In this document: positions 1-53,531 of the stretch, piece by piece | How the letters are laid out: each line of letters starts with the position of its first letter | How positions within the stretch are numbered: the stretch's first letter is position 1 | IMG/VR virus record: IMGVR_UViG_3300008954_000067 | Location: 1 to 55,957 of that record | Length of the DNA: 55,957 nt | Direction: 5' to 3' (one strand) | Source of the DNA: a virus | Notes under the pieces: model-generated | Told to the model about the DNA's origin: nothing | The model's database searches: none | What the model saw: only the letters and a program-made list of their open reading frames with translations | Translations under genes and position numbers: made by a program

Positions 1-217
1 ATTTTTGTTGCTGTTTCTCTGCTTGCATTTGTGCTCGGCGCTTACCTTTATGCTTCTTGTCACGACGTACTTTCGACTTCTTGACATAATAACGCCTTTT
101 CCGAACTTCGTTAACTATTCCTGCTTCTTTACATTTTCTTATAAATTTTCGTATCAATGCGTGGGTCGACTGACCATCTTTCCCTAGTTCAACTACTACA
201 TGTGCCGGCTTTGCCAC
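1..217 (-). CDS. rpsU: Ribosomal protein bS21 homologue, 3' end cut by window edge
   Basis: Seen: an open frame of 72 codons read from GTG at 217..215 to the window edge with no stop. The protein starts AKPAHVVVELGKDGQ and continues ALIRKFIRKCKEAGIVNEV, then a strongly basic Lys/Arg-rich tail. Known: bS21 is a roughly 70-residue small-subunit protein with the pattern ALRRFKRxCEKAGxLxEVRRRxxY and a basic tail; it sits near the anti-Shine-Dalgarno end of 16S rRNA and affects initiation. The match covers the whole core, including the Cys and the AG(I/V) and EVR segments. Phage-encoded S21 genes are known from aquatic phages. The start is chosen from a GAGG element eight bases upstream. The gene follows the preceding stop codon by three bases. 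Inference: it may replace host S21 and bias translation to phage mRNAs. The C-terminus is not visible. Confidence 0.88.
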   Translation of the reverse strand, partial: MAKPAHVVVELGKDGQSTHALIRKFIRKCKEAGIVNEVRKRRYYVKKSKVRRDKKHKGKRRAQMQAEKQQQK

Positions 218-220
218 TAT

Positions 221-820
221 TTATACCTCATCGTCCTCTTGTTGGTGAATTGTTGCTATCAGCTTTCTCAAATTTATAAGTGTACGCTCATCATCACTTG
301 GCATATCATCTAAATGATATACAGGATCTGGTTCAATAATATCCATAGGCTTTGGAGCCTTAGAGAAACCATGCTTTGTACCGGATGCTTGAGTATGCGT
401 CCTTGTTCTGAATGTTGGTTGATGAATATTTGCCGGGACAGCACCACCACCTGCAGATGCCTGGCGTTTCTTATACAGATCTGGCATCGGAGAAATTCCC
501 TTCGACACACTTAATTCGCTCAACTTAGTATTCCCTGCAACAAAATAAAATGGATCATTGCCTGCTGCACTTAAATAATCACTAGGTCTGTACCCCATGT
601 TAACAGCAGTAACAAATGCATCTATATCATCCAGCTCAAGAGCCTCTTCATCATCCAGCTCGCTATATGGATCAGGATCTATGTAAGGAAAATCGCCCTG
701 AAGTTGACGAGGTTCAAATCTGCCGGAAGATTTTACAGGACTATAGCCTAATCCTGCCTTATCATCATAGGACCCTACACCTTGTCTATAACTTTGGGGT
801 TGTGGTAGCTTTCGTGGCAT
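221..820 (-). CDS. Unknown acidic, largely disordered head-region protein
   Basis: I do not recognise a family. The 199-residue product is rich in Asp, Glu, Pro and Ser, with an acidic stretch near residues 48-68 (SELDDEEALELDDIDAF), a Gly/Ala-rich break near 122-126, and a second acidic patch near the end (DIIEPDPVYHLDD). No signal peptide, membrane segment or Cys pair is visible. It starts at ATG after an AAGGGATA ribosome-site-like sequence, 17 bases after the previous stop, and ends three bases before the S21 gene. Position downstream of the prohead protease and two paralogous small proteins suggests a head or prohead-associated role, but that is inference from location only. Confidence 0.6.
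   Translation of the reverse strand: MPRKLPQPQSYRQGVGSYDDKAGLGYSPVKSSGRFEPRQLQGDFPYIDPDPYSELDDEEALELDDIDAFVTAVNMGYRPSDYLSAAGNDPFYFVAGNTKLSELSVSKGISPMPDLYKKRQASAGGGAVPANIHQPTFRTRTHTQASGTKHGFSKAPKPMDIIEPDPVYHLDDMPSDDERTLINLRKLIATIHQQEDDEV
226..229 (-). promoter_or_regulatory. Ribosome binding site of the S21 gene
   Basis: On the minus strand GAGG lies eight bases upstream of the GTG start of the S21-like gene. It also forms the last codons of the preceding gene (GAT GAG GTA TAA), so the two genes are translationally close. It supports the GTG start, since no in-frame ATG exists near the 5' end of that gene. Confidence 0.6.
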
Positions 821-3100: not shown

Positions 3101-3712
3101 TTATTTCTCCCAATCCATAATATCATTAAAGATCCTATCGATTCTATCTGTTTTTGTAAAGTATTGATCTAAGTCTTTTCTACTAATCTCTCGGCCCTCT
3201 TTCATCATAAAGGCTCCAGGTGTAGAGGGCTCAGAAACAAAGTCCCAACAAATTAACTGAAAATCGTCTTGGACAACTTGGTAGTCCCCTTTTTGTGTTG
3301 TGGACCCCACGCCACGTGATGATATGCCTAAGGTTACCCCTGCCTCAACTAGATTTTGAAGAATCTTGCCGCAGGGTGTGTCGAGTAGCTCAACTGTGCC
3401 CTTACAGACGTCACCTTCCATCCATGCTTCCCTAATGATATGCGAAACATTCTTTAGTTCTACAACTGAGGAGTCTGGGTGGTCACATTCTCCCAAGGCC
3501 CGATTTTCCCTAATGAACTTCTGATAATTCCTAACCTCTCGTTCAAGAATAGGAAGAGGATAAATTCGGCCATTTTGATTAAGGGTCTCTGCCTTTTGCA
3601 AAATGCCCTTCATAACAATCTTACCATTGTTTTGTTCACGAGACTCTTTAATCATCTCTTTGTTATATTCAAAGGGTAACCATGAAGTAACTAGTTTCAA
3701 GTTATTTGCCAT
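3101..3712 (-). CDS. 21: Prohead core maturation protease, gp21-like
   Basis: A 203-residue protease that would cleave scaffold and head proteins during prohead maturation. Seen: an N-terminal segment with NGRIYP (about residues 47-52), a catalytic-His motif GECDHPD (His78), and a catalytic-Ser motif LGISSRGVG (Ser131 or Ser132), followed by a beta-rich C-terminal half. Known: this order of His then SSRG is typical of the T4 gp21/herpesvirus-assemblin-like fold of phage prohead proteases. Its length is close to T4 gp21 (about 212). Its ATG overlaps the stop of the upstream gene by one base (TAATG-type junction), and portal lies just beyond, matching T4 gene order portal, small proteins, protease. 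Confidence 0.9.
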   Translation of the reverse strand: MANNLKLVTSWLPFEYNKEMIKESREQNNGKIVMKGILQKAETLNQNGRIYPLPILEREVRNYQKFIRENRALGECDHPDSSVVELKNVSHIIREAWMEGDVCKGTVELLDTPCGKILQNLVEAGVTLGISSRGVGSTTQKGDYQVVQDDFQLICWDFVSEPSTPGAFMMKEGREISRKDLDQYFTKTDRIDRIFNDIMDWEK

Positions 3713-4560
3713 TATGAGTTCTCCAATAATTCTTGTTTTAATGCTGATACAAGCAGGAACTTAGAAATGACATCATCATTAATCTCATCTGGAGTCAAAC
3801 TATCAACGTTTTCACGAATTACATTCATCTTTTCATTGAGTATTTGGTTATCACATGCTAATGAGTATACCTTTAGTTCATCTAATGTTGATTCCCTAAT
3901 ATCGGATAAATAGTCGATTAATGATGTTGCATCTTTTTGCTCCAAAGCAAATACATACTCCTTTATAATCTCAGCCTGTTCATCATTTAGGGTATCATCA
4001 TATTTTTTATTGAATTTCTCCGTCATAATCCGAACAGTTAAAACATCAACATCATCATTTCTATGCACGTTGATATCCTCATCCTTCTTTTCTTGCAATA
4101 GCCACTTGCAGACCTTGTCCTCATAATTTGCCACCCGGCTAATATGGGCAGACCTATTATCCCGCCAATCGTTTAATAATGTTTGTATCGTTGCATATGA
4201 CCTATAGTCTTTTACGCGTTGAGCATAAAATGACTCATCATCAATGCGGTGGTTGATATCCTTTATTAGCTTAGCTTTTTCTTTTCTAAGCTCCGTTGAG
4301 TTAAAGTCTAAGGCTGCACTTTTTGCCTCACCTAAAATTCGGCCGGCAAGAACATCAGAGCTTACAGACGTTTTTACAAGGGCATTGAATAAACGAAATT
4401 CCCTATATAGTTCTGAACCTGGTTTAAAGTTATCAGTCAAAACCTGTGTAATTACCTGAGCCCTGTCTTCGTTTCCTTCTACGAGCGACTGCGATATACT
4501 TCGAAGAAGTTGCTCGTATATGATGCCGACATTCCTCTTTTTATTATGTGTCTTCGCCAT
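3712..4560 (-). CDS. Helical protein between portal and prohead protease
   Basis: A 282-residue, almost entirely helical and charged product. The N-terminus (HNKKRNVGIIYEQLLRSISQ) and the segment FRLFNALVKT look like ordered helices; the middle is rich in Lys, Asp and Arg and could form coiled coils. No membrane segment, Cys pair or catalytic motif is evident. The gene starts within the last 17 bases of the portal gene and ends overlapping the protease start, so it is tightly coupled to prohead genes. Known: T4 places small prohead core proteins gp67 and gp68 in this slot, but those are much shorter. I infer a prohead assembly role without claiming homology. Confidence 0.65.
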   Translation of the reverse strand: MAKTHNKKRNVGIIYEQLLRSISQSLVEGNEDRAQVITQVLTDNFKPGSELYREFRLFNALVKTSVSSDVLAGRILGEAKSAALDFNSTELRKEKAKLIKDINHRIDDESFYAQRVKDYRSYATIQTLLNDWRDNRSAHISRVANYEDKVCKWLLQEKKDEDINVHRNDDVDVLTVRIMTEKFNKKYDDTLNDEQAEIIKEYVFALEQKDATSLIDYLSDIRESTLDELKVYSLACDNQILNEKMNVIRENVDSLTPDEINDDVISKFLLVSALKQELLENS

Positions 4561-6628
4561 CGGTCGTTAACCCATCCTCTTCTGTTAAATCGATCTCGAG
4601 TTCCATATCTTCCTGCCCTAATCGTGACTCTGCTAGCAGTTCCTTACTAGAAATACCTATTGCGCTCCCCAGCTTACTTAAAGTAGTTTCCATCTCACGT
4701 GTCATCTTCGCATGCTCACCAATCTTATCATCCAGGTAATTGTCTAATGATGGTGTATAAGGAAGTAGATCACTTGCGTCGGTACCTTCTCTGAATGGGT
4801 CTCTTAATACGTTGCTCTTATCATATGGGTCATTTGAGGTATCTTGCTTTCTTCCTGATTTTCCCACACTGGTCATTTTTACAAAATCGGGTGCATTAAG
4901 TGAAGAAGGGCCGGAACGAACTGTCCGACTTTTCTTTATAGGTTCATTAAATGTATTCCTCATTTGCCTCTGGGCTTTTATTGGACTTTCTTCATCATCA
5001 ATTGATAACCTGGCAATGTCTATCTCGTCGTCTTCATCTTCATCTTCATCTTCATCCGACGGCAATGCAGTTAGTAGCTGGCCATCTACCATATCGGCCG
5101 CAAATAGATCTCCGCCTTCGTCTCCGCCTTCGTCACCACCAGCTTCTTCATCACCACCTCCGCCAAAGAGATCATCACCACCACCCTCACCACCGGCGGC
5201 GCCGGCGCCTGGTAGGGCCGCGGCCTGGTCTGGAGGTACGGCTGTTGCTTCTACCTTAAGGTCCATTACCTTATCATCAATAATACCCTCTAGAATGTGG
5301 CGGATATCATCATCTCTAAGTCCTAAGATATTTTTACGAATCCACTCTCTATCAACAATACCTTCCGGTGCGGTACCTGCAATCTCAAACTTCCTTGCAA
5401 TTAGCTCAAGTTTTTGCTGCTGGGCTATAGATGATGGGTTGGACAGTTTCAACTCGAAATCTAAAAGATCCTCGCCTTCAAACCCATGAGAGAATAGATG
5501 AATCATAGCTATTTTATTCAACTCAGATAATACAGTTTTTTGAATTCGCTGAATTGATCTTGAGAATCTAATATCTTCTTGGGCAAGTGTTGCCTTGGCA
5601 CCGACATCCTCATCATATCCCAGATATGCCCGTGGGATCTTTAATGCTGCAAATAGCTTCTTTTGGATATATTCAACATCCTGAACTGCTGCAGTATTTG
5701 AACCACCAGCAAGGGTTTCAATCTTTGTCCCCGATTCCCCCCCACGTACGGGAAGAAAATAATCTTCATCCACGCTCAGTGGATTATACCGTAGGTCGAC
5801 CTGGCCAGTTTCTTTATTTATGATTTGACTTCTTTTAAGAGACGTCTGAGCCTGTTGTAGATACTCTGCAACATTCTCAGGAGGAACATTACCAACATCG
5901 ATATAGAATACCCTTCGTTCTGGAGCACGAATGACCCTATATACCAACATGGCATCCTCAATAAGGATCAATTGTCTCCATATGCGTCTGGCAGACTCTA
6001 AAACAGAATTCCCATATGGTAGAAAGGCATCATTACCTAAAAGCCTAAAATGAGATACCTGCCAATTCTCCAAAACCTGGTTCCCTTGTGTTATCCATCG
6101 GAACCTTACAGCTGAGGGATCGTTTGGGTCAAATCCTTCTTCACGCTCAATCTCCGATATAGGGATTGGGTATGCATTTATCATGCCGAACTCTGGTGAA
6201 ACATCATTGAACAAGAAAAAATCACCATACTTGCATAGATTTCTCACCCACATAGGCAAATTGAATTCAATGTTCATCGTTTCTAGAAATAATGTGTCAA
6301 GAATTTCTTGAATCCGACGGTTCTCTGAGTATATGTGTAGGATATGTCCCTTTTCATCTGGGGACACCGTCTCCTCGGCATATATGTCTAAAGCAGATGC
6401 AATCTCAGGTGTAGCTTCCATTTCGCTAAAGTCACTATATCTGGACATTCTATCAAATGCCCCATAAGCAGACAATGTGCTATTATATACATCACTATGT
6501 TGCTTAGAGAACATATCCAGCGTAGACTGTGCGCCCTTTGTCTGGAAGTCACGAACCCTACGCTTAACCATTGGGCCGCCACGAAACAGTTGCGTTAATC
6601 GTTGAAATAGGTTTTTATTCTTTGCCAT
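4544..6628 (-). CDS. 20: Portal vertex protein, gp20-like
   Basis: The portal dodecamer forms the DNA channel and neck attachment at one head vertex. Seen: 694 residues with an N-terminal charged segment, the block ATPEIASALDIYAEETVSPD (about 73-92), MWVRNLCKYGDFFLF, APERRVFYIDVGNVPP and KLFAALKIPRAYLGYDEDV, all typical of T4-type portals. It is longer than T4 gp20 (about 524) because of a low-complexity tail: a Gly/Asp/Glu-rich stretch near residues 480-515, then a DEDEDEDDEID run near 530-542, and a further 150 polar residues. The tail is probably disordered. Gene neighbours are terminase upstream and protease downstream. An extended -10 element lies 33 bases before the ATG, whose ribosome site is AGAGGAT. 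Confidence 0.92.
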   Translation of the reverse strand: MAKNKNLFQRLTQLFRGGPMVKRRVRDFQTKGAQSTLDMFSKQHSDVYNSTLSAYGAFDRMSRYSDFSEMEATPEIASALDIYAEETVSPDEKGHILHIYSENRRIQEILDTLFLETMNIEFNLPMWVRNLCKYGDFFLFNDVSPEFGMINAYPIPISEIEREEGFDPNDPSAVRFRWITQGNQVLENWQVSHFRLLGNDAFLPYGNSVLESARRIWRQLILIEDAMLVYRVIRAPERRVFYIDVGNVPPENVAEYLQQAQTSLKRSQIINKETGQVDLRYNPLSVDEDYFLPVRGGESGTKIETLAGGSNTAAVQDVEYIQKKLFAALKIPRAYLGYDEDVGAKATLAQEDIRFSRSIQRIQKTVLSELNKIAMIHLFSHGFEGEDLLDFELKLSNPSSIAQQQKLELIARKFEIAGTAPEGIVDREWIRKNILGLRDDDIRHILEGIIDDKVMDLKVEATAVPPDQAAALPGAGAAGGEGGGDDLFGGGGDEEAGGDEGGDEGGDLFAADMVDGQLLTALPSDEDEDEDEDDEIDIARLSIDDEESPIKAQRQMRNTFNEPIKKSRTVRSGPSSLNAPDFVKMTSVGKSGRKQDTSNDPYDKSNVLRDPFREGTDASDLLPYTPSLDNYLDDKIGEHAKMTREMETTLSKLGSAIGISSKELLAESRLGQEDMELEIDLTEEDGLTTDGEDT

Positions 6629-6689: not shown

Positions 6690-8297
6690 TCACTTCAATA
6701 ACCATGACATATCTCCATAAGGAGAATTTGAGCCTGATACTTCAGGCATTGTTCCCATTACAATTGGTTGAAACGGATTTGGTGATGCACCACGATTAGT
6801 CCAAATATCTGCGGAGGACGGTGCTTTATTCTCAGGAGACCCATTAACTGCAAATGCAGCTAGCATCGCGTCATTAATATTTACCGTATACTGATTATAG
6901 TTGGGTGATGTATCATAAAGCCATGTCCCAATGGCAAGGGCGATGACGAGGTCATCATTTGCGCCTTTCTGGGCCTGGGCCTTATTGCCTTTCCACACAA
7001 ATGTCTTTAGCTCATCATATAGCCTCGTAGAGTATATCTTGATTTGCCTATTTCTTAGAATTTCTTCCAGCTTTGTCAGCACCTGTATTCTAGCTGGTGC
7101 CGTCATCGTGAAACCTACTTTGTGGATATTGCTTTCCCCATACATCGAAGCATATTTGTCACTTTGCTTCTTAAAATAAAGATTAGGATAATTCATTTCG
7201 ACCAGCTTCATAATGACCGCATACCCATATGTGTTATTCTCAGGACAAACTAGGGCCTTACCATACCTCATCCCAGCTTCATTGAGCAACATCGCAAATT
7301 GATCTGGGGGCAATTTACCTTTATATTCTGCAACTACCTCTGATTCATTTGTATCGATTACACAAAATGTTGAATAATCAGCAGCATCGCCCCTAGCAAC
7401 ATCGGCAGATATTATATACCTGTGCTCAGACAGCGCATACTTCCATACCCACACCCCCATATCTGGGCCCCATTTTTCTAATGGGTTCCTAACGGCCGTC
7501 CGAATATATTCAATATCCTCTGCCGCTAGAAATGTGTCACCTGATGCTGCAAAGTCACATAGTAGCTCTTGTGCAATTTGTTTGTTAGATAAGTTTTTAC
7601 ACTCATTCTCAAACCACGTTTCATCTCTCTCAGGATGTACATCCCATGGGAGACGAATGGGGTGAAACTCACTTTCCCCCGCAGCAGCCTTCATATACAA
7701 GTCATAATACTGGCCACCGACACCATTTGGGGTTGATAACACAATTGCACGACCACCGGTAGAGAGTGTAGGGTATAGGCCCATCCACAACTCATCAAAA
7801 TTACGAACAAATGCAGCCTCATCCACAATCAATAACGACAATGCCTCAGAGCGGCCGGCATCATCAGATGTAGGAATAGCCTTGATAGTTGAACCATTAC
7901 TAAACTCAACAGATTGCTTATTACTAGTAGTAAGCTCAGGCAATATCAGCCATGGAGGCACATTTCTTAACGCAACCTTCACTTTCTTTATAAAGTTCAT
8001 TGCAACTGCTAACTTCGTTGCAATTACCAGAATATTCTTATCCTTATAAAAAACAGCCAGCCATACAGCATACGCCGCACTAATTGTTGATAATCCAAGC
8101 TGCCGGGACTTCAAGATTACATTAAACCGATTGTTTATGAAATCATGAACACACTGATCCTGAAAATCGTATGTCTTGAATGGAATTAGGCCTGCGGTCG
8201 GATGTTGTATCTTTACATACTTGTTGAAAAAATAAACTGGATCCTTACCACAGCGGACTATTTCCTTTACCTGACGTTGCTTGTTAACAGGGGGCAT
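6690..8297 (-). CDS. 17: Large terminase subunit, gp17-like
   Basis: The packaging motor ATPase and nuclease that cuts concatemeric DNA and drives it through the portal. Seen in 535 residues: an adenine-binding region FKTYDFQDQ, a Walker A-type loop SRQLGLST (64-71), Walker B LLIVDEAAF with D159 and E160, coupling motif STPNG (188-192), and the RNase H-fold nuclease start IISADVARGDAADYS with D299. A further acidic nuclease residue probably lies in PENNTYG or NDDLVIAL near the C-terminal end. Length is somewhat below T4 gp17 (610). It is preceded by a small gene 10 bases upstream and followed directly by portal, with no sheath or tube genes between, unlike T4. Confidence 0.95.
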   Translation of the reverse strand: MPPVNKQRQVKEIVRCGKDPVYFFNKYVKIQHPTAGLIPFKTYDFQDQCVHDFINNRFNVILKSRQLGLSTISAAYAVWLAVFYKDKNILVIATKLAVAMNFIKKVKVALRNVPPWLILPELTTSNKQSVEFSNGSTIKAIPTSDDAGRSEALSLLIVDEAAFVRNFDELWMGLYPTLSTGGRAIVLSTPNGVGGQYYDLYMKAAAGESEFHPIRLPWDVHPERDETWFENECKNLSNKQIAQELLCDFAASGDTFLAAEDIEYIRTAVRNPLEKWGPDMGVWVWKYALSEHRYIISADVARGDAADYSTFCVIDTNESEVVAEYKGKLPPDQFAMLLNEAGMRYGKALVCPENNTYGYAVIMKLVEMNYPNLYFKKQSDKYASMYGESNIHKVGFTMTAPARIQVLTKLEEILRNRQIKIYSTRLYDELKTFVWKGNKAQAQKGANDDLVIALAIGTWLYDTSPNYNQYTVNINDAMLAAFAVNGSPENKAPSSADIWTNRGASPNPFQPIVMGTMPEVSGSNSPYGDMSWLLK

Positions 8298-18563: not shown

Positions 18564-18590
18564 TTACATGCTCCTTCGATAAATATACTG

Positions 18591-20423
18591 CTATTTTGAT
18601 GTCCGTAAATCCTTGAGATCGATATTAATCACTTGACTCTTTTGCCGATCCACGTTTATAACCTGTAATTTGTAGCGACCCTCTTCATCCTGATCGGTGA
18701 ATGAAAGTAGCCCGAGATCCTCCTCATTGCTATCTACGATAGATAAGTATTCAGGATCAAAGAATATAGCACCTTTTGTATGGCCACTATCCTTAATTGC
18801 ATCACTTGTTAGACTAATGCTGTCTATACCGAGATCAGGATTTGCGATTAGATAAAAGTTTGGATATGGCTTAGGTGCACCTTCAGGTGATATTATTTCC
18901 TTGACAATCCTATTCTCAAGCTCGCTAAATGATACTGCAAATTGTTGAGAATAATTTGATGTAAAGTCATGAGCATCAATACTACACAACGCATAGATAT
19001 ATTTTGACTCTTTCGTGAATTCCTCATCCATATACGTAGTCAACGGATTTTCCATCTGATATACCCTAGTTGCAGTTGGCGTTTCTTTTCTTGGATCTGG
19101 AATCTCACTGTCATCAAAGTCATACTCTGCTAATAGCTGAAAAGGTTCATTTATTGATTGGCGCCTAAAGACCTGAAAACGTTTTATGTCTCTTGTAGAG
19201 ACTACTGGGAAGCTCCACATCATCGTCATCTTTTTATTTCTATAGTCCCAAATAAAGTCAATATCTCCTGGAGGCGGAGGTGGATCATACTCCTTGCAAT
19301 ACACTCCAGATGCAGGGCTTTTACGAGATGAAATTAAGCCAGTTATAGCAAATATCTGGCCCGTCTCTTCATCAACTGCTTGAAACTGCACTAGTGCAAT
19401 TGCCCTTATAGAATAAGAATATGAGGCATCATACTTTATTTTAGAATCAAGGCCACCCCCAATTGACGATGATGATAATATGATTGGATCCTTAGAGCGC
19501 TTATATCCACTTGGCAGAATTTCCCACTTATCAACAATATAACCTATAACCTTAACAGCATTCTTAAATTCGGATGCGTCGATTCTTTCAATAGAGATTG
19601 GTTTAAGGTTAGTGAAATATTCATAGTCTGAAATTTTGCCAGCACTATCAAGAGTTCTTGCCATAGCCTGTGTTGTTTGGGCGGCTTCCCGGTGTAGTGA
19701 AAGTTCTCCTGAGAATGGACATAGGGGATTCATAACGGATTGGTGCAAAATCGTACTTAAAAACTTATCACTAAATTGAGAATAATGGTTTAAGTCAGCT
19801 ATCTGGCGGACCCACGTTGGCTGGACACGCCTGTTTTTTCTGGTGCTAGTATCATAATATGTTACTTCTCCGTAATTCATGGTACTTAGCAGTTTTAAGA
19901 TCCACTTTCCCTGAATCCATTTCGACGTTACATCATTTAATAGCTTTGCTATGTCTGCAGGGGTTGTACTTACAATCTCCTCATTATTAGAAAGGGTTCT
20001 AACTTGTGATGAATGTAGTATTAGATTTCTTGACTTTACATCGACCTTATCATCCTGAAGATTTAATGCAGAATATCCCCTTGTTGCAACGTCTGTTTCA
20101 TTCTGTACCTTATGCTTCTTATTGGCATCCTCTATTATTCTTTTTATGCCTTGTGGCCTAGAGAGATCTGTAACAAACTCATTATCAACACTAGCGTTTG
20201 ATCTTACATCAACTGGTTCAAATGAAAATTCAACAAACCTTGGAACCTTTCGGCGAAGCTCATCTACCTGATCTTCCGTTGCTGTACCAAATGCTTTTCT
20301 AGATCCAGACTCATTTGATTTTTCGTCTGGAGCAAAAAAGTTATACTTGAACTTAGCCTTAAACCGACGAACTTCCGGAACATCAAGAACTGTTAAAACC
20401 TTAGATGGATAAGAGACAGCCAT
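18591..20423 (-). CDS. Virion protein with fibronectin III-like domain
   Basis: A 610-residue structural protein. A poly-Pro hinge (DPPPPPGDIDFIW, about residues 380-392) introduces an FN3-like domain to about 500: KMTMMWSFPVV, DIKRFQVFRRQ, FQLLAEYDF, and YIYALCSIDAHDFTSNYS, the usual B, C, C' and F strand sequence patterns. The N-terminal 370 residues are mixed, with SYPSKVLTVLDVPEVRRFKA at the start and TWVRQIADLNHYSQFSDKFL in the middle. The tail is a small beta segment. The ATG overlaps the stop of the 1423-residue gene. Known: FN3 modules decorate phage tails and heads and bind weakly to cell-surface carbohydrate. Specific position in the virion is unknown. Confidence 0.72.
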   Translation of the reverse strand: MAVSYPSKVLTVLDVPEVRRFKAKFKYNFFAPDEKSNESGSRKAFGTATEDQVDELRRKVPRFVEFSFEPVDVRSNASVDNEFVTDLSRPQGIKRIIEDANKKHKVQNETDVATRGYSALNLQDDKVDVKSRNLILHSSQVRTLSNNEEIVSTTPADIAKLLNDVTSKWIQGKWILKLLSTMNYGEVTYYDTSTRKNRRVQPTWVRQIADLNHYSQFSDKFLSTILHQSVMNPLCPFSGELSLHREAAQTTQAMARTLDSAGKISDYEYFTNLKPISIERIDASEFKNAVKVIGYIVDKWEILPSGYKRSKDPIILSSSSIGGGLDSKIKYDASYSYSIRAIALVQFQAVDEETGQIFAITGLISSRKSPASGVYCKEYDPPPPPGDIDFIWDYRNKKMTMMWSFPVVSTRDIKRFQVFRRQSINEPFQLLAEYDFDDSEIPDPRKETPTATRVYQMENPLTTYMDEEFTKESKYIYALCSIDAHDFTSNYSQQFAVSFSELENRIVKEIISPEGAPKPYPNFYLIANPDLGIDSISLTSDAIKDSGHTKGAIFFDPEYLSIVDSNEEDLGLLSFTDQDEEGRYKLQVINVDRQKSQVINIDLKDLRTSK

Positions 20424-23400
20424 TATACATCCCCTGAAGGTGTTGATATTGTCACGAAAAAATCATTAAAGGAGCTATAATTTTCTCCCTTTCGACGAGG
20501 CTTAAGCTTCTTTACAATGCTACCGTCTTCTAATTGTACATCCTCAGATATCTCAGAGAAAAAATCCTTGTCTAAGAATTCATTTCCACCAAAATTTTCA
20601 GATGTTGCCTCAATGTCTATTTCAAAATCATCTGGCTCAACCGGTACCATAAACACCCTATCAAATAGTTTCGGTGCCATAAACTTTAATAATGTACCAC
20701 GAGAATTAAATAATGTAGCACTTGCTAAAGCCCGGAAACTGTTTAGATCATTCCCACTTAAAAGGGGTGGAATTCTAAACTTTCTAGAACTTCCCCAACG
20801 CTTTGGCGTTTGAATGCTATCTGTTGATGATGACGCTATCCTTCTAGACTTATGGGTATGATGATGACCATCTACTCGAACATCGCCATCGTTGGCCCCC
20901 TCGCCATGGCGCCGAGTTTTACTGTCCCATTTACCATGATGATGATGAGTAATGTCCTTTCCTCCCTGTGTCGCAAGACCGGCTTCATACTTTCTAGCGT
21001 TCTCAGTATCACTCCAAAACTTATTAGCCTTAGCCTGACTGGAGAATATTCGCTCTTTCATCCATGCACTTGCATCATCACTTGTTACAACCTTATTTAG
21101 TGTTTCGCCTTCTAGGGTTGTTGATAATATTAGATTACCAACTGGGACGGAACCATTTCTTACCCACCATGATGTGGCCTCATTGGCTTCACCAAGTTGT
21201 AACAATGTCTTTGCATCGCCGTCGACAAATATATCTAGCCAAGCATCATCATACATAAATGTACTTTCATCCATCTCCAATCCAAATAGTAACCCATAAT
21301 ATACTCTAAGTAATCTGTCAATGATATGATTTGATAAAAGGCTGGTACCACCATCCGAACCTAGAAACTCATATAAGCCTGAATCCGTTATATCAGATGA
21401 AGTTCGTTCTTCAACAGCATCCTTTGAGTCGACATCTTCTGGTTGGCGGCTATCTGTTCCTGGCATAAAATGGCTAAATACTGCCTGACTATAGACTTCC
21501 TCCAGTCTAGTTGTTAGATCTGGATTGATATCCCCAAATGCAGTTGGCATTAAGAACAATGAAATATCATATAAGAATTTCTTAGGCTTGAAAATTACGT
21601 CTTCATACTCTAAGTCTCGTTTGTATACGTTTATTTCAACCACATTCCTATGTTCAGGTAACTCAGTAGACTCCTTACTCCCTATTGTATATGAGGGATT
21701 ACGAAGAGATGCTAATAGGCCCGCGGGAATTCCCACAGGTAGTACCCTAATATTATCGCCGGTCCTGCCGCCTAGCTTTGGCTCAGCTAAAAGAGCACGT
21801 AATGCTGCTATCTCATGAGCACTAATAGTTTGAGTAGCTGGAAGGTAGCTACCATCCTCTGGTCGGCGTTTCATCCTAGATCGCATAGCATTTAATAATA
21901 ACAACTGTTGCGATGATAGGCTTTGTAAAAACTTCTTTCCTAATGAATGTGTCCCGAGGTCTTTTATCCTACCAGTATTATTTCCAAAAAATGATTCAAG
22001 CTGATCGGCTGAAGTACTCATCGTGGATGAAATGGCTTGTAAGACACTATTCATATGGTGGATAAATTTTGTCTCTTGTTCTAACTCTGTCATAAACGTT
22101 TGAAGATCTGTAAAGGACTCAGTCCCGTCATCAGACAACTCTGTTAAAGCGGCACCTTGTGATAATGTTCCCTCAGCAACTTCATCGCTTCCAGAGTCCA
22201 CCTCTTCAGCTTGGCTATCTTGGGCACCCTCGCTGTCCGATAACTTCATATCTACTACAAGATCTATTGCTTCAATTAAGCTCTTATTTTTGGCACTGTC
22301 ATATATTACATACAGCGTCTGGCCTGATCTATATAAGTAAGATTCTACATGTCTAGAAAACAGTAATATAAAAATCTCAAATAAAATTACAAAGAATGCA
22401 TCTTCATCCCAGCCATTATATAGTGTTTTTCCAGACTCAGCCAAATAAACACCTTCACCTTCATTCCTGGTGGCCAGAGCCGCAGCTGATTCCTCCATTT
22501 CGCGAACGAGGTTTATGATTATTGCTATAGCTGAATTAGATCCACTGATTTTATGTGAAGCCTTCATGAGCGTTGAGTAGACTGCTTCTTTACCTAATGT
22601 TACAACATCCCTAGTGTTTGATGGTACTGTCCCGGCCGGAAATTCTTCTGCTAACTCAAATACTCGTTTTGCTATTTTCATAGCGGTATAAGAAAGAGGG
22701 TTTCTAGCTGTTCGTAATAAGTTTCTAGCTTTTAGAGCATCAATTTCAAGATTTTTTGAGATTTCTTCCCATGTAACAGCACCCATCTTTGCAGCTTCTC
22801 TTCCAGTTGCCGAAGAGCGAGATTGTGATTTCCTAAATGCCTCTAGTGCTTCTCGTTTTTTCTTTGCAAAGGCCTTGGATCCTGTGAGGTCTTCACCTGA
22901 ATCTGTCTCTAGTTCATCAGACACGTCCCGAAGCTCCAGTAGGTATCTGAAAACTAAATGACGAAGGCCTTGGTCTGTTCTACTTAAGTTTAGAATGGAT
23001 GTGTATATTGCTTGCTCTTGATCTGAAGATGTTGATGATGTCAAGTCATCCACTGTATTTTTAAGGCCCGTCAATACAGACGAAAATATAGACTGTGGTT
23101 GGAGCTTGTATTCTTCATCTTCTAGGTTCAATAATTTTTCTATGTAGTCTATTGCATCATTGGTTGTATCTTCAAACCCCTTTGCAAATGTAACATAAGG
23201 ATCTGTATTGAACATATCACCAAACCTTATGATATTGTCAACAAGGGCTATTGAGCCTGGGACGGCTCGGCGACCCCTCTTATCAACAAAAACCCGTGTT
23301 TCGAACGGCAATATAGATCGATTGTCTCTTGCAGCCCCATTTTTCGTTTCGTTAATTAAGACATAATCAGCTAATGAACCATCTGCCTTAACGTCTTCAA

Positions 23401-24694
23401 GAATATTATTTTTAGGTATCCCTAATGCATTCCCTATTGAGTTATGATTTGGTGCGCCGAATCTTTTACCTAAACCTTCATTAGCCAGCATCCCTAAACC
23501 GGCTGAGACTGTTAGTTCACGCGACAACATCATTACCAATACTTTAATTCTATCTTCATCATCAATTGGTAGTGCTGCCAAAAAACTTGAATACTTTGAA
23601 TATACTCCAGGGTCAAATTTTGGTGAGCGTAGATTAAATGGCCTTAGTTTGTATCCTCTGTGCCGTGGCACAACAACCCTGTCAATTGTTAATGAGTCTT
23701 CATCATCCTGTCTATCATAGTTATTTTCACTTATAAGCATGGGTGAATGACGAAGGACTGCAAATCGTAAATCGGACAGTATCTGGTTTATTATCTTGCT
23801 ATTACTAAACTTATCATAACCATCCTCAGAGAACCCAAGGCTATTTACGAATAGGGATCTTATTGATAAATCAGTGTCTGTTTCTGTTGTACCTGGAATT
23901 TTCTCACCAACAAACTTAGTAACAGCAGTAGACAAGGCTTCCTCATTATCTTTTATATCTAGCGCACTTTTAGCTAATTCTAAAGATAATACAATTCCAT
24001 ATGCATCGTCCATAAGGTTACGCTGATATAGGTCAAAGGTTTCATAGTTCTGTAATACTTGATCGTATTCTTTTTGATCACCCTGGTTATCTTTCAGCTT
24101 CTTAATAGTTTCTTCCACATTTTCTACTAATAGCTGGCGCATGGTCCACCTAACGTCTATTAATTGATCAACAGTTGTTAGGTGCCCTATATTGCTCTTT
24201 CCTGGAATCCAGTCTAATGAGCCTAATAGCTCTGGCCTTAAATTTGATACCGACGTATCTCTTAAAAACCCTGTAACATTGTCTAACGAGTCAATAACCA
24301 GCTCATCCTTTGTTGAGACAGCACCATAGTGTGTTACAATCTTGGGTTCTGGTGGAGGGGGTGGGGGAGTATATACACTGGTCTCGCTTTGTTCTTCTAC
24401 GGATGATGGGGTAGGTACTTCGGGAGGAGGTGTATCTGATACGGACGTTGGGGGAATTGGTCGATAAACATAATATGACCTTGGTACTTGTACCCTCTTG
24501 GTCGACGCTCTTTTCTTACCTGATGAAGAAGAGATTGTTAATCTGGAAGTGTTGGCAAATATATTCTGGCTGGTTGGTGCCTGAGATGTTACAGAAACAA
24601 CATTCCTAGAATAGCGAGGGCTGCTAGATTGAGATGAAGATGTGCTGGGTTGTATGCTTATCGATACTGCCGTCCTTATATTAGAAAATGCCAT
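20423..24694 (-). CDS. Very large mostly helical virion protein with His-rich segment
   Basis: A 1423-residue protein not assignable to a family. N-terminus (1-60) is Ser/Thr-rich, followed by a Pro-rich hinge with PPPPPPEPK at about 111-119. Residues about 160-1000 are largely helical (for example DQLIDVRWTMRQLLVENVEE, YSTLMKASHKISGSNSAIA), with an acidic linker near 825-860. Residues 1246-1283 hold a His-rich patch: THHHHGKWD, then DGHHHTHKSRR about 25 residues on. The last 100 residues are ordered. No transmembrane segment is evident, which argues against a tape measure. The gene overlaps the 610-residue gene by one base. Possible roles are a neck, whisker or baseplate-periphery scaffold; the sequence does not decide. 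Confidence 0.68.
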   Translation of the reverse strand: MAFSNIRTAVSISIQPSTSSSQSSSPRYSRNVVSVTSQAPTSQNIFANTSRLTISSSSGKKRASTKRVQVPRSYYVYRPIPPTSVSDTPPPEVPTPSSVEEQSETSVYTPPPPPPEPKIVTHYGAVSTKDELVIDSLDNVTGFLRDTSVSNLRPELLGSLDWIPGKSNIGHLTTVDQLIDVRWTMRQLLVENVEETIKKLKDNQGDQKEYDQVLQNYETFDLYQRNLMDDAYGIVLSLELAKSALDIKDNEEALSTAVTKFVGEKIPGTTETDTDLSIRSLFVNSLGFSEDGYDKFSNSKIINQILSDLRFAVLRHSPMLISENNYDRQDDEDSLTIDRVVVPRHRGYKLRPFNLRSPKFDPGVYSKYSSFLAALPIDDEDRIKVLVMMLSRELTVSAGLGMLANEGLGKRFGAPNHNSIGNALGIPKNNILEDVKADGSLADYVLINETKNGAARDNRSILPFETRVFVDKRGRRAVPGSIALVDNIIRFGDMFNTDPYVTFAKGFEDTTNDAIDYIEKLLNLEDEEYKLQPQSIFSSVLTGLKNTVDDLTSSTSSDQEQAIYTSILNLSRTDQGLRHLVFRYLLELRDVSDELETDSGEDLTGSKAFAKKKREALEAFRKSQSRSSATGREAAKMGAVTWEEISKNLEIDALKARNLLRTARNPLSYTAMKIAKRVFELAEEFPAGTVPSNTRDVVTLGKEAVYSTLMKASHKISGSNSAIAIIINLVREMEESAAALATRNEGEGVYLAESGKTLYNGWDEDAFFVILFEIFILLFSRHVESYLYRSGQTLYVIYDSAKNKSLIEAIDLVVDMKLSDSEGAQDSQAEEVDSGSDEVAEGTLSQGAALTELSDDGTESFTDLQTFMTELEQETKFIHHMNSVLQAISSTMSTSADQLESFFGNNTGRIKDLGTHSLGKKFLQSLSSQQLLLLNAMRSRMKRRPEDGSYLPATQTISAHEIAALRALLAEPKLGGRTGDNIRVLPVGIPAGLLASLRNPSYTIGSKESTELPEHRNVVEINVYKRDLEYEDVIFKPKKFLYDISLFLMPTAFGDINPDLTTRLEEVYSQAVFSHFMPGTDSRQPEDVDSKDAVEERTSSDITDSGLYEFLGSDGGTSLLSNHIIDRLLRVYYGLLFGLEMDESTFMYDDAWLDIFVDGDAKTLLQLGEANEATSWWVRNGSVPVGNLILSTTLEGETLNKVVTSDDASAWMKERIFSSQAKANKFWSDTENARKYEAGLATQGGKDITHHHHGKWDSKTRRHGEGANDGDVRVDGHHHTHKSRRIASSSTDSIQTPKRWGSSRKFRIPPLLSGNDLNSFRALASATLFNSRGTLLKFMAPKLFDRVFMVPVEPDDFEIDIEATSENFGGNEFLDKDFFSEISEDVQLEDGSIVKKLKPRRKGENYSSFNDFFVTISTPSGDV

Positions 24695-28320: not shown

Positions 28321-29484
28321 TTATTGTCTAAGACCCACAAGCTTAGGAATTCTTTGTAGTGTTAAGCCCATGTTTGCAACAGCACGCTGCCTAATGAGAG
28401 GCGGAAGATCTTGCCTGTGGATTAATTCATCTAATAACTTTGCAGCTTGCTCAAATTGGCCGACATAATATAGGCACACAGATAGCTCATCTTTTAACTT
28501 CCAGTCATAGACCAGTTTATCAATAAATAGAGTATCATTAACTGGGTATCCTAAAAATGCTGTTGCAGACAAGCCATAAAAACATCCACCCTTGAAACCC
28601 TTATTTGTCCTTTGGAACTTAATCAGCTCATATAAAGGCTCTGCAGAACGTTCAGGTCGGAGCTCGCATGCCTTTAGTAGCTCAGCTCGTGCTTGCTCAT
28701 ACGTAAATGCATCACAATATAACATTAGTTTGCCCTTTTGATACTGCGCATAAAATTTTTCTTCAGCCCAACCTTCTGCAGCTGCTCTTTTATCATACCA
28801 CTCTATAGCCTTCTCATGATATGCAGGACCTGAATCACGGTATGATTGAGCAAGATAGAATATAGTCCGAAGATCATCTGGATTGTTTTTATGTTCTTCT
28901 TCTAGAAGCTCGGCATCTTTCAAGAACTTTTCTTCCTGCGTCACCCCACGAGATCGCACCCCTTCACCAGGTGTTGCCAGAATCCAGCAAGCTTTGTTAC
29001 ACGCTGAAGCTTGTATTGGAGGATCTTCTGGTGCAATATACTCATGTACGGCACCATTCCATTTCCACTTCTTTGTCTTAACATTTACCATAAACGGGAT
29101 CCTATACCTGAGTGGGCCATAACTCTTATCAAGACAATGCATATCTCCCGTCGCATTTCTTATAGAGTTAGGTTCATCATAATGTAGAACTTCATCGGCA
29201 TCGATAAACAGTGCATAATCAAATTTTTTATTGGCTTTAACTAAGTCTAACGCTTCATTTCTATTATGGTGAAAGTTAACCCACGGTGTCTCAACAACCT
29301 CACCTGGAATACCATACTCATCCATGGTCTTCTTTATTAGCTCTTGAGTTCCATCAGTTGATCCGGTATCACATATAATATAATAGTCAATAACACCTTT
29401 CACAGATGCCAGACATCTTTCAATTACTGGCGTTTCATCTTTAACGATCATGTTCAAACAAATAGTATTTTTTGACATTTTCAC
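28321..29484 (-). CDS. GT2-family glycosyltransferase with helical-repeat C-terminus
   Basis: A GT-A fold transferase of 387 residues. Seen: the family start TICLNMIVKDETPVIERCL, the nucleotide-sugar-binding ICDTGSTDGT (about 37-46), and the metal-binding DxD-type motif FIDADEVLH with Asp95 and Asp97. From about 190 the protein changes to paired helices (NPDDLRTIFYLAQSYRD, YEQARAELLKACEL, FEQAAKLLDELIH) typical of TPR repeats. Known: GT2-TPR proteins transfer sugars to proteins or surface glycans. It sits between the collagen-like fibre gene and structural genes, preceded by a candidate promoter and a GAGGTG ribosome site. Inference: glycosylates a virion protein, perhaps the fibre. Alternatively it modifies the host surface or phage DNA precursors. 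Confidence 0.87.
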   Translation of the reverse strand: MKMSKNTICLNMIVKDETPVIERCLASVKGVIDYYIICDTGSTDGTQELIKKTMDEYGIPGEVVETPWVNFHHNRNEALDLVKANKKFDYALFIDADEVLHYDEPNSIRNATGDMHCLDKSYGPLRYRIPFMVNVKTKKWKWNGAVHEYIAPEDPPIQASACNKACWILATPGEGVRSRGVTQEEKFLKDAELLEEEHKNNPDDLRTIFYLAQSYRDSGPAYHEKAIEWYDKRAAAEGWAEEKFYAQYQKGKLMLYCDAFTYEQARAELLKACELRPERSAEPLYELIKFQRTNKGFKGGCFYGLSATAFLGYPVNDTLFIDKLVYDWKLKDELSVCLYYVGQFEQAAKLLDELIHRQDLPPLIRQRAVANMGLTLQRIPKLVGLRQ

Positions 29485-30639: not shown

Positions 30640-33600
30640 TTATTCCCCTATTAGTTCGGTAGATAGATTGAGCATTGATGGGTCAATTGGATCACGATTC
30701 CGAGGTACTCCATCATCAATAAATGGCATAGATGATGTGCAATAAGCATTAATATTTTGGGACCATGTTAGCTCAGGCTCCGTTGTTCCACCATCAGGAT
30801 CTAAGAACCTGCAAAGTACTGGTGAGGCTGATAATTGTGTCTTTTTATTCTCTTCACCAACCTTAAAATATCTTGTATCTTTGCGTTGTTCCATTAGATC
30901 CCTAAATTGACCGTAACGATCTGACCTGAATATCGAAGATGCATTTAACGGAAGGCCACTGATCAACCCATATTTCCAACCACGAATGTGGGGAACATAT
31001 CGCCAGGTACTGATTTGTGATAGCAGAGGCCCATGTCCCCACCCACGGCCGGCGCCGAAGTAAAACTTATAAGCATTACTTCTAACTTCCTCTGATTTTT
31101 CAAGGTATATGTTTCCGTCATTATCAGAAATAAACCCCTGAGCTCCGTAATACTGTGCATTGTATTCGGCTTCTGGCCAAGGATTAGGCATATCTTTTCC
31201 TGGCTCAAGTCCGTATCCAAAAATAGATCCCGTTACAAATAGTGTAGTAAATTTCTCCTCAACAGCGCTTGACCCGTATGTCCCCGCGGGGGCAATATCT
31301 TCGGTTAACTCAGCGGCATTAACCACTGACCATGTACTTTCATCACGGGTGAACAATTCTCGTTGCAGCCGACCATGGGCTCCCTCGAATGGGAAAGTAC
31401 TTAGCCACCCATCATCGATTGCAGGTGTGAGTTCTTTAGGATATGCATCGATACCTTGCTGTGTTACCTCAATCTTCCACTCAGCCTGAGGATTGTTGAC
31501 AGTATCGCCTCCGTCAGTATTGGGGCCGTCTCCGTTCTCACTGGCACCAGCACAACCAGGAGCTCCGCCAATTACTATATTTGAATTTGTGTCTTCTTGG
31601 CCTTCGACACCAGGAAAACTAGCATCTGGTGCTGAGCCATCTCTTGATGATGTTACTGTAAAGAACCCATCACCAGATTCATAATCTATAATAAACTGAG
31701 GGTATTCGGCTATCGCAGAGGCTGTTCTGGATGCAACTTCAGAACTATCAGCACCTATATTTACATCTTCTACTTTTATCAAAATACCAGATGGGTCTGA
31801 TGGTGCTACAGGAGGATACCCTATATCTCCACGGCCATCGATATCATACCACACATTATATGCAAGGTTTTCAGCATCATATATCGTAAACCAGCAACCC
31901 TCTATGCTAGTCTCTAACCCATCGGCCAGAGATGAATGATGATCAAGTGGTACGCTTTCAGGACCACATGTAATCTTGGTTACTTCTGGTACAATTGTCC
32001 CGCCGTCTGCTGGGCTTGGTTGCCCTACTACCATGTGGTACCCATATAGGCCGAGCAAGCTTTTTCCTCTACTCTGGTGATATGAAGGAAGGCTCGGTGT
32101 CATTGAGTCATAATATCGATCAGTTTCTGATGACATTTTCATATTTCTATAAAAGGAGCCTCGTTCTCCTGGGCCCGGCATAGGATTACCGGTCCATGGT
32201 AGTGAGCCACTTTGGGTAAATCTTGCCTGTACCTGGCGAGTTCGTTCATGATAAATTCTGCCCTGTACAAACTGATCACCTGGTTGCTCAACAATGACGT
32301 CGACTAACTCATCAAGAATAGTATTATCACTACCAGTTATTGCTAGTACTGTATGAGCAGCAATGTCAGTTATCTTTAGTTTCCCACCTTCTGCGTCGAA
32401 CCCTAGTCTTCTCCATGCAGGTATTTTAGATAAAGTTGTCCAACCAGCAGGTATACCTTCACCGGTCCACTCATCGGCTTGATCATCTATCCTTACCCTA
32501 GTTGAGGGATCTGACATTACTCTTTCTATTGCTAATGTCAATTCACCGGGTTCCAGTACCCTATCATCAAACATCGGTGATAACCACCATTGTACGGTAT
32601 CATAGTCCCATCGTTTGTCAACAACATATATTCCTCCGTCATATTTTTCATTAACGGTGCCACCGGTATCTGCGTATACGATGCCCCCCGTTGCACCAAG
32701 TGGATTACTACTAGCACCACCAGGATGATCCGGATCACTAACATATGACATATACTGGGTACCATGATCATTAAAGTAGAACCTGAACGTAAACTCTTCA
32801 TCAAATGGTTTTTCTTCTGTTGCACCTACATCATTATCACCCCAGTTAGCTTCTGGATCAATATTCGGAAAGACCTTGATGTCTACATAGCTGGCGCACT
32901 GGACTGGGGAACTGATTACGTCGAACGATGCATGGTTTGTTATCTTAGATGGATCCCTGCCACCGATAATTGCACCTGATATCGCAGAGACTTCTTCAAA
33001 TGATGTAAAGTTTAAGCCATTATTTGGCCAGCCGGGCTCACATTCTGATGTCTCATCATATGCAATAGACCACCCACCTGCTGTTATCTGGATATATTCC
33101 CAAGGTTCTGCTTCAAAAAGCTCACTGGCAAGAGGCAGCTTAACATCTGCTTGACCAGGATTATTGGGATCCCATGATGTGGGAACACTGTAACTGCCTA
33201 TATCGCATGCACCAATTGTTGTTTTGAATGCTATTGACCACTCTGATGATAGAAACACGATCGGCTTATTTGCATGGGCCCCGCCGTACCATGATTCGAA
33301 TACAACTGAGTTCTTTATACCAAATTCATCCTCTATAATCTTTACATCATAACAAAATACAGTGCTGGGGCGAGGGTTTGATGCTCCACTCCCAGAAACA
33401 CTACCTGATGTTGGAACACCCCAGTTATCACTAGGTGCAGGAGGCGACGCATCAGCATTGTCCGCGTCAACAATACTATAATGTGGAAAAATATCCGTAA
33501 TAGGCTCATTATATGGTATGCCACTACTCCAAATACTGGTGCTTGATAGTTTCCCCAACTCGCCGTTTGGGTCACCATCGGAGGTTATTCTCACACCGGC

Positions 33601-36600
33601 AAAATGAATATAATCACTATCCCATTCTGGAATGCCTCTGCAAGCAGTATTATTATAACTGATGACTGCATTATAGAGAGCTTGAGCCTGTCTCTCTGAG
33701 CTATATTTTACTAGTTTATTATTATCCCATTCATCTTTATCAATACACGCACCGATTGGAACAAATATATATTGGACGCCATTATCAGGGGATGCTAAGT
33801 AACGACCGGTAAATGGCATTGCATCTTGTGGACCGGGATTTGGTGAGGTCCATGCATATGGAACTGCCCATGTTGATGAATAAAACTGGTTTTCAGAACC
33901 TTCCCAATCATCATTATCCCAACTTGCCGCTGGGCTTTTACAGATCATTGAATCTGGTTCAATATAGTCATCTGTCAACACAATAATAAAGACACTATTT
34001 AGAGCACCATCACCAGGTTCTCCTGAACTACAAAAACTGTTTTCCGGAGCGGTACTTGGGTTTGGTATTAATAATATCGGCCAACCACCGGAGTCTTTTC
34101 CAAAACGAATCCTTCCAGTCTCCGTGGCACCGTTTGACCACCTGGTTGTTTCCTTAGTACAATTAAAATCATGAATTGACTTAATTGGCCGACAATACGC
34201 TCCAGTAGTATTCCAATCACCGTCTAGGCCGCCGGCGGCTGTTTCACCGGTAGTGGCCATTATCTGTGGAAGGCCGAGGCCGAACTCAGAATCTGTGGCA
34301 TCTTTTCCACCGGTGAACTTTATTGCAAATGTCGCAAAATCGCCTGTATATTGTGACTCTGACGGTTCACCACCATATGATCTTGGCCAGGAGCCATCAG
34401 AAAACCCGGCTGCGCCAGAAGTTGCACCAGGCCCTTCGGCACCAGAATGCCCTATATAATATCCTACAGATGCACTAGTATGTTCACCAGTCGGCCCAGG
34501 TGGATATATGCTCCCTATCTCATCCATCCTACTATAGTCTTCGCCACCTGTAACTCTAACTCTTGGGCCTGGCATTACTGCATCATAACGAATCTGAAAG
34601 TCACCTGTTCGATAGTTTACATTTCCGCCCCTGACTTTATTGCTACTTGATGCAATCTGACCAGGGTTATTTGGATTATTGGTAGCTGACATATCAAATT
34701 CGCCACCTGTGGTGAGATCTATGCCTGGGCTAAAGCCACATTCTGGTGAACCGGCGCCGCCTTCAGCTCGGATCCTTAACTCGTCCATGTATGCAATACT
34801 TGAATTTTCTGGAGACCCGGCAATAACTCGTTGGGCACTATGAACTGGGTTTAGCGGTAATACCCATGCACTGGCTCCCGGCTTATTAGAAAATAATCCT
34901 GTGGCCCCAGTTACTGACCCGTGATAAAATTCCCTATTTGAAGTGCTATCAAGAACTGCCTCTTTAATTTTCACGCCGAGAATAGCATGATGATCATAGG
35001 TGGGGCCATCGCCGGCGGTTTGTGCTAGTCGGATGTAATACGGGCTTCCTGGACTCGGGATTGCAATTGAAGAAACCCTAAAGGGATGGCCACCCTCTGG
35101 CTTCAGGAGTTGAAGTACATTAACTGTCTCCCAAACTGTAGAGCTATCACTAGGATTGCCCGTCGTTTGCTGAACCATTATTTCTTCGCCAATATCAGGC
35201 CTTTCCAGCTCAACACCGGTGAAGACACCGGAGGTCATAGAATTCAATTCCCACTTATTGGAACTAGACAGGCCTGAGGACCAATGGATCGTCATAGCTA
35301 TACTAGAGTTTAGTTCTTTAAGATATGTGAGATGTGCTGGGTCGGCTTCGGTGGGGTCACTTCGGCCAAGCTTTAGTATTGCTGTAGCACCTACAAACTC
35401 TGGATCAACTATATCAGCCGAGTAGCCTTGAGGGTGATCGGGGTAATCAGTATAATGTGTTTCAATTGTACTTTCATTATTTGTTATCCAGTCCGCAAAA
35501 ATACCAGCATCATTAGGGGTTCCAGGACCGATATGGGCCGTGGGATATCCTGTAGAAAACTTTAATACCAGGGATGGGTGTGATAATTCACCAACCCAAT
35601 CTTCTTCTGTCATCGTATTGGTACCAGAAGCACCTTTGATATGTGGCTCAATATAAAGACTGTTTCTTGTCTCCCTTGCATCAAAGCCCGAAACATTTTT
35701 GTATGGATTAAAGACCAACGTTGATGTTGACTTATATGGGCCGAACGAAAATATATCACCCCCGTATAATTCATCCCGCATCGTACCGGCCAAGTTCCCG
35801 ATCTCGTCAGTATCAAACTGATCTACTGTTGGATTATCATAATGCAGTGCCTCGTGTAGCGCGTCTGACGTCAGCGGTTGGTTCAACGGCTCATGGTACT
35901 CTTTATCGTCTCTTATAAGAGAACCATATAATGTCAGCTTAAATGGTATCGTATTTGTTGCAGATGCACCTGGGGCTAAGGTAAGGTGTGGACCTTGATA
36001 TGGAGAAATCCCATATTCATCTTGGTCGACTGTTCTTCTTGCCCAATAAGGCTGCATTGATTGACAACCTATTACTAGTTTGTCTCCAGGAAGTAAAATA
36101 TAAGGACTGTTCTCTCGGCCGGGCTCCATAAGTTGTAGAGTCGAGGAGTTAGTTGAGCCACCCCCGCCTCCGCCATAAGCATCGCCTGTCTCTTTTTCTG
36201 TCCCAATCGGAGCCGACCCAGGAACTGTAGAGTTTAGACCTCGTTGTGAACGAATACTGTCACTAATTCCTGACCTTGTTCCAGGATGGTCGGTCTTAAA
36301 AAAGATCTTGCCCATGGAGGTAACGGACGTGGCACCTGCATAGTCGTATGCATCTATAAGGTATGCAGAACCCTCAGAGTGTTTGATCGGCACTTTACAT
36401 GTGCCCTCCATTACAAAACTACCGGATGTTGCTATTGATACACCATCTGCACCTGTGTGTGGGTCTCCGTCTACCTTGGTACCTTCTACTGTTATTTCAC
36501 GCTCAAGACCTTCATCTAAAATCTTCTGTATGTCTTCATGGGCATCGTTAATGCCTTTATACGTTGTGACTTGTCCGTATGTTATTAGCTCACGAGAGGA

Positions 36601-53216: not shown

Positions 53217-53531
53217 TTAAGTATCTTCATCCTTGAGCTCTTCGGGGCTATCAATCTTTGTTAGTGCACTAGCAACAGCTAAAATAGAAGAACGGGCATT
53301 ACGTACATCATCTAAAACACCTCGAATCTCTGGGCTATCATAGAATAATGGCCTATCCAAAATTGTAGATATGTTTGTATATGTTTCATCAAGTGTGTCT
53401 AAAGAATCTTCTAATGCCTCTTGAGTACGTAAAATAGCTAAGGCGAATTTAAGCGCAAAATAGGTTGGTACACCGACCAACACTAATACTGCACCTAATA
53501 TCATTAATAATGCTGTATTGCTTACTAACAA
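53217..53531 (-). CDS. Small single-pass membrane protein
   Basis: A 104-residue protein with one N-terminal transmembrane helix (TALLMILGAVLVLVGVPTYF, residues 6-25) followed by a charged helical domain containing DSLDTLDETYTNISTILD and RPLFYDSPEIRGVLDDVR. The start is TTG at 53531, overlapping the glycosyltransferase stop by seven bases; a GGGGGG run lies about nine bases upstream. An ATG at codon 10 lacks a ribosome site and would trim the membrane helix. It is not a recognisable holin or spanin: only one helix, no lipobox and no lysis neighbours. The topology predicts a cytoplasmic coiled-coil domain. Similar small proteins with a YxxPEI-type patch may exist in T4-like phages, but function is unknown. 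Confidence 0.6.
   Translation of the reverse strand: MLVSNTALLMILGAVLVLVGVPTYFALKFALAILRTQEALEDSLDTLDETYTNISTILDRPLFYDSPEIRGVLDDVRNARSSILAVASALTKIDSPEELKDEDT

Follow-up and report, generated by a model that had tools for sequence, protein, structure and literature searches.

A phage-encoded bS21 gene at an optional, fixed position among the head genes of marine T4-like myoviruses

Ribosomal protein bS21 is the commonest ribosomal protein in viruses. The window analyzed here, a 55,957-nt stretch of viral DNA (positions 1 to 55,957 of the IMG/VR record IMGVR_UViG_3300008954_000067), encodes at its left edge a protein that sequence comparison identifies as a genuine phage bS21 (positions 2–217), a predicted functional member of the family from a lineage of marine T4-like myoviruses. 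The gene is optional in this lineage, and its position is fixed.

Identity, reading frame and origin of the bS21 gene

The bS21 gene spans positions 1–217 on the minus strand and consists of 72 codons (217 down to 2), with a GTG start at 217 and a stop codon that the window edge cuts after the first base. A search of the 72-aa product against PF01165 (Ribosomal_S21) yields a score of 40.9 bits (E = 1.7e-10) over profile positions 5–54 of 55, compared with the curated Pfam cut-off of 27 bits. Thus, the very search that the first-pass annotation of this DNA had named as a possible refutation of its claim of a phage-borne bS21 gene bears that claim out with the full-length protein. The same product matches PHROG 21469, “ribosomal protein S21” (E = 2.6e-7), and the PDB sequences of solved bS21 chains (E = 5e-7 for the single sequence and 7.5e-9 with the family profile). 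The protein is very basic (pI 10.9) and retains the conserved basic positions R52, K54 and R61 of the bS21 core. The AlphaFold model contains helices 18–32, 34–40 and 47–71, with a mean pLDDT of 82.6 but a pTM of 0.40; its top matches in the PDB are ribosome chains, at E-values of only 0.16–0.2, the best of these (E = 0.16) being a ribosomal chain of a 70S complex.

An in-frame TAA is located two codons 5' of the GTG, with no ATG, GTG or TTG in between. Given this stop and the lack of an alternative start before the S21 core, the GTG start, which had been part of the original gene call and is the sole common start codon in this region, is well supported; it coincides with the N-terminal M-x-K-P of the relatives.

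A related 6.1-kb viral contig (L002) extends to the left of window base 1. Residues 39–72 of bS21 are 100% identical at the amino acid level and are followed by TAA, and the DNA of the shared bS21 stretch is 90% identical, so that L002 comes from a related genome rather than from that of the window. A disruption of the frame just beyond the window edge, the other outcome that had been named as damaging to the gene call, was looked for in this contig, and in this relative (90% DNA identity) the frame is intact up to the TAA after codon 72. Judging from L002, all that appears to be missing from the window is the second and third base of the bS21 stop codon. All 10 nucleotide differences between L002 and the window in the 34 shared bS21 codons are synonymous; with the neutral expectation that about 26% of random changes are synonymous, the probability of this outcome is ~1e-6, which indicates that the gene is under purifying selection. 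The frame is short, cut by the edge and GTG-started, as a chance ORF or a decaying remnant might be, but this explanation is refuted by the PF01165 score above the cut-off, the orthologues in the same slot of related genomes, and the absence of nonsynonymous changes among the 10 differences.

In a maximum-likelihood tree of S21, which is based on 74 columns and leaves many forks unresolved, the window protein belongs to a phage-only clade of 20 rows with support of 99/93. The bS21 of Bdellovibrionota, E. coli and Acinetobacter fall elsewhere in the tree, outside this clade; together with Bacteroidota, these make up the cellular sampling. In alignment A1 and in the S21 tree, a few relatives were entered with an initiator methionine replacing or preceding a non-ATG first codon, and the phage-family profile A3 consists of unaltered translations. 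Neither a single-protein scan of bacterial and archaeal genomes nor the tree, with its limited bacterial sampling, identifies a close cellular source of the window bS21, and a tblastn search of INPHARED (50,697 phage records) started with this protein produces no match. As far as the sequences indicate, the phage-only clade has diverged far from the sampled cellular bS21.

Position of bS21 in the head-gene region

Several head genes are codirectional with bS21 on the minus strand of the window, namely, those for the terminase large subunit (terL, 6690–8297; phrog_2, E = 4.4e-49), the portal protein (4544–6628; phrog_213, E = 7e-71), and the prohead (head maturation) protease (3101–3712; phrog_207, E = 3.2e-51). 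The immediate upstream neighbor (221–820, minus strand) has no assigned family, and its homologue (hereafter the ORF-221 homologue) flanks the S21 slot in related genomes. Baseplate and tail genes are found farther along the window. In L002, bS21 is followed by a 649-aa acidic ORF in the scaffold position, which matches no family, and then by the genes for the major head protein (MCP, phrog_138) and a head-tail adaptor/connector. The head-module location asserted in the first-pass annotation is supported by terL, portal and prohead protease in the window and by MCP and the connector in the relative L002. The start region of bS21 (218–235, minus strand) agrees with what had been said about spacing: a 3-nt gap separates the gene from the upstream stop (TAA, 221–223), and a GAGG Shine-Dalgarno (SD) sequence is located about 8 nt before the GTG (SD duplex energy of -6.9 kcal/mol), an arrangement compatible with co-translation of the two genes.

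The tail/baseplate half of the window encompasses three very long ORFs, 30640–40467 (3275 aa), 20423–24694 (1423 aa, with no PHROG match) and 41521–45234 (1237 aa). Tandem glycosyltransferase genes (53525–54697 and 54694–55944, phrog_2170) are present at the right edge and a further one at 28321–29484 (phrog_13126), inside a structural-gene stretch.

Searches with terL and portal queries collect 159 loci from viral contigs. The gene order of the window lineage is strongly conserved, terL – portal – ORF – protease – small ORFs – ORF-221 homologue – (S21) – scaffold – MCP, and every S21 found in the head region of this lineage lies in this one slot, ahead of the scaffold gene. The distance from the ORF-221 homologue to the scaffold gene forms two classes, 223–322 nt in loci with S21 and -16 to 131 nt in loci without it. 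S21 is present at the slot in 16 of 47 rows, the window included, and absent in the other 31 (a count that includes some near-duplicate rows), so the gene is dispensable in the lineage. When presence and absence are mapped onto the terL tree, at least 9 changes are needed, with gain and loss not separable by the tree. Alignment of the slot in the S21-less sisters of the locus L095 shows no readable remnant of S21.

Because the Pfam profile alone misses the more divergent S21s, profile A3 was additionally run on the larger contigs that lack S21. Elsewhere in the contigs of 108–293 kb without slot S21, the Pfam and A3 profiles detect no S21, with one exception; as all these contigs are fragments by the database's own classing, this absence is not final. 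The exception is the contig of L005, in which a different, more cellular-like S21 (locus L162) is encoded far from the head genes; this cellular-like bS21 suggests an independent acquisition. In another distant relative (L163, from the record of L042), the bS21 gene likewise lies well away from the head genes. The close relatives that have bS21 at a given site and those that lack it there make a natural comparison, which the published Bacteroidota phages offer only via two outgroups.

Expression, translation signals and possible roles

In lake phages, bS21 and the core structural genes are expressed together, and the neighbors of bS21 are terminase, portal, protease and capsid genes (Chen et al. 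2022, ISME Commun, PMC9723584). By its position and by analogy with these phages, late expression of the window bS21 is plausible. The T4 late promoter motif TATAAATA at 218–225 was considered as the bS21 promoter and rejected because it is too close to the start and because the window contains just 2 copies of it, less than expected by chance. Just 5' of the scaffold gene, a motif in the register of the T4-type late promoter, NATA[C/T]TTA, is found in 27 of 46 related loci (e.g., at about 150 in L002, about 8800 in L093 and about 17900 in L130), against a background of 2.3% of 90-nt windows, the match to the consensus having been found after inspection of the same loci. This motif is a possible T4-like late promoter for scaffold and MCP, immediately downstream of S21, and is best regarded as a lead. 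With such a candidate promoter before the scaffold gene, S21 and MCP could be transcribed separately; the terL-portal-protease unit may end with S21, and scaffold and MCP may have a transcript of their own. Copies of NATA[C/T]TTA in the window are located at 18580, 49205 and 53218, of which two or more directly precede other genes. Another sequence found before the scaffold gene, TGTAACTTTT, was discarded as a general motif, being present only in a few close relatives.

An SD core is correctly placed in 19 of 37 window genes, compared with 10% of internal ATGs, and the mean anti-SD duplex energy of the window genes is -6.5 kcal/mol versus a background of -2.25 kcal/mol. This enrichment implies that the phage translates in an SD-using host, and it is unlikely, on this evidence, to be a typical Bacteroidota phage. 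The distant relatives L015 and L016 show no SD signal (mean about 0). A 108,871-bp contig (PBIO01000013.1, L187/L086) in a MAG labelled Halobacteriovorax encodes a terL with 79% identity to that of the window, possibly a hint at a phage of predatory bacteria. Halobacteriovorax was nevertheless not accepted as the host: the L187 phage has no slot S21, the MAG's own bS21 falls outside the phage clade, and the binning may be wrong.

Late in infection, S21 exchange had been thought able to steer host ribosomes toward phage late mRNAs, which is a published hypothesis and not a new one. If mRNAs were selected via SD strength, a difference between relatives with and without S21 might be expected; in the window lineage, however, the mean SD strength of the head genes is -5.79 kcal/mol with S21 (n = 16) and -5.76 kcal/mol without it (n = 31), so that SD strength is rejected as a signature of steering. 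Given this equality, the many close relatives without a slot bS21, and the large S21-less contigs that (with the one exception) have no copy elsewhere, the steering claim is not supported.

The explanation that we favor, with moderate confidence, is that a functional phage bS21, whose identity, location, selection and optionality are described above, modifies the host ribosome. It would probably be translated along with the last genes of the terL-portal-protease run. By analogy with known phage proteins, this would happen late in infection, and the protein would most likely replace its host counterpart on the 30S subunit, at the 3' end of 16S rRNA; such a replacement would alter translation initiation during virion production. 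We know of no in vitro translation data on phage bS21 beyond the pelagiphage protein in E. coli ribosomes. That protein was incorporated into E. coli 70S ribosomes, with in vitro translation at ~5% (Mizuno et al. 2019, PMC6375957). This low activity counts against the favored explanation, as do the absence of slot S21 in 31 of 47 rows, the independence of SD strength from S21, and the candidate late promoter downstream of S21.

The ~5% result is as compatible with inhibition or a host mismatch as it is with steering. The phage bS21 might act mainly as an inhibitor, shutting down host translation by entering ribosomes or by competing in 30S assembly, with no selection of phage mRNAs; this would agree with the residual activity of the E. 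coli ribosomes, with the divergence of the phage-only clade from the sampled cellular bS21, and with the lack of an SD signature of mRNA selection. We consider this role unlikely: general inhibition during virion production would harm the phage too, and, according to the authors, the low activity may stem from a mismatch between a Pelagibacter phage protein and the E. coli ribosome (PMC6375957). Because bS21 is a dynamic, easily exchanged ribosomal protein (PMC6375957), the phage could also simply supply it as a part, restoring initiation without preference when late infection or host stress depletes the host protein. The patchy, optional presence of the gene fits a condition-dependent benefit of this kind, but the divergence of the clade from the sampled cellular bS21 exceeds what a simple replacement copy needs, which makes such a supply function quite unlikely. 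A non-ribosomal role of an RNA-binding bS21 derivative, for example, one that is packaged into the virion or binds phage RNA, is very unlikely in view of the retained bS21 core, including R52, K54 and R61, although the high pI and the location directly before the scaffold/capsid genes would suit it and virion packaging of phage bS21 has been raised as a possibility (Chen et al. 2022, PMC9723584).

Comparison with known phage bS21 systems

Genes of this kind, their head-module setting and the late-stage hypothesis have all been published before. As in the lake phages of Chen et al. (PMC9723584), for which late expression is the working hypothesis, terL, portal, prohead protease and MCP of a myovirus all lie no more than a few genes away from bS21 in the window lineage, judging from the window genes, the MCP of L002 and the synteny in the relatives. 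Contigs of the Chen type (L012, L013, L014 and L020) are recovered as distant relatives by portal and terL. In these four contigs, and only in these in the present set, bS21 is on the strand opposite to the structural genes, whereas in the window lineage it is codirectional. The slots differ as well: the opposite-strand S21 of L012 and L013 is located between portal and protease, and that of the window lineage between the ORF-221 homologue and scaffold. The Chen-type bS21 is closest to Bacteroidota, in a background of SD-poor genes, and those of L012 and L013 group with the Bacteroidota bS21 of 7jil (99/92); the window bS21, in contrast, belongs to the separate phage-only clade and to an SD-using phage.

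Head-module bS21 is thereby extended to SD-using phages, to which the explanation proposed for Bacteroidota, with bS21 hiding the anti-SD, cannot simply be transferred. It is conceivable, although unlikely, that the lineage possesses an optional translation-modifier slot, that is, a fixed site between the protease-side and scaffold/capsid genes of marine myoviruses of SD-using hosts, at which a phage-only bS21 clade would be repeatedly gained or lost and would act otherwise than by anti-SD sequestration, e.g., through altered handling of the highly expressed scaffold/MCP transcript by the ribosome.

Pelagiphage HTVC008M and metagenomic viruses (PMC6375957) resemble the window in having a myovirus bS21 from an aquatic setting under purifying selection, those viruses being mostly lytic; the HTVC008M protein is close to that of its Pelagibacter host, unlike the window bS21, for which no close cellular source was found within the limited sampling. 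The rpS21 of huge phages (Al-Shayeb et al. 2020, PMC7162821) is likewise a phage S21, with an altered N-terminus, and has been proposed to redirect translation; the N-terminus of the window bS21 is only slightly longer than that of E. coli, without the long basic/aromatic extension of the huge-phage protein. The nearest cultured phages by terminase (43–44% identity) are Microcystis phage Mel-JY01 and Flavobacterium phage immuto (MW353175). The latter shares the order terL-portal-protease-MCP with the window lineage, but no bS21 is annotated in its head region; two small ORFs between portal and scaffold were checked as a hidden S21, and neither is one. Set against these systems, what is new here is a separate phage-only bS21 clade, codirectional with the head genes and invariably found in one slot, together with a background of SD use and a clear comparison between relatives in which the gene is present and those in which it is absent.
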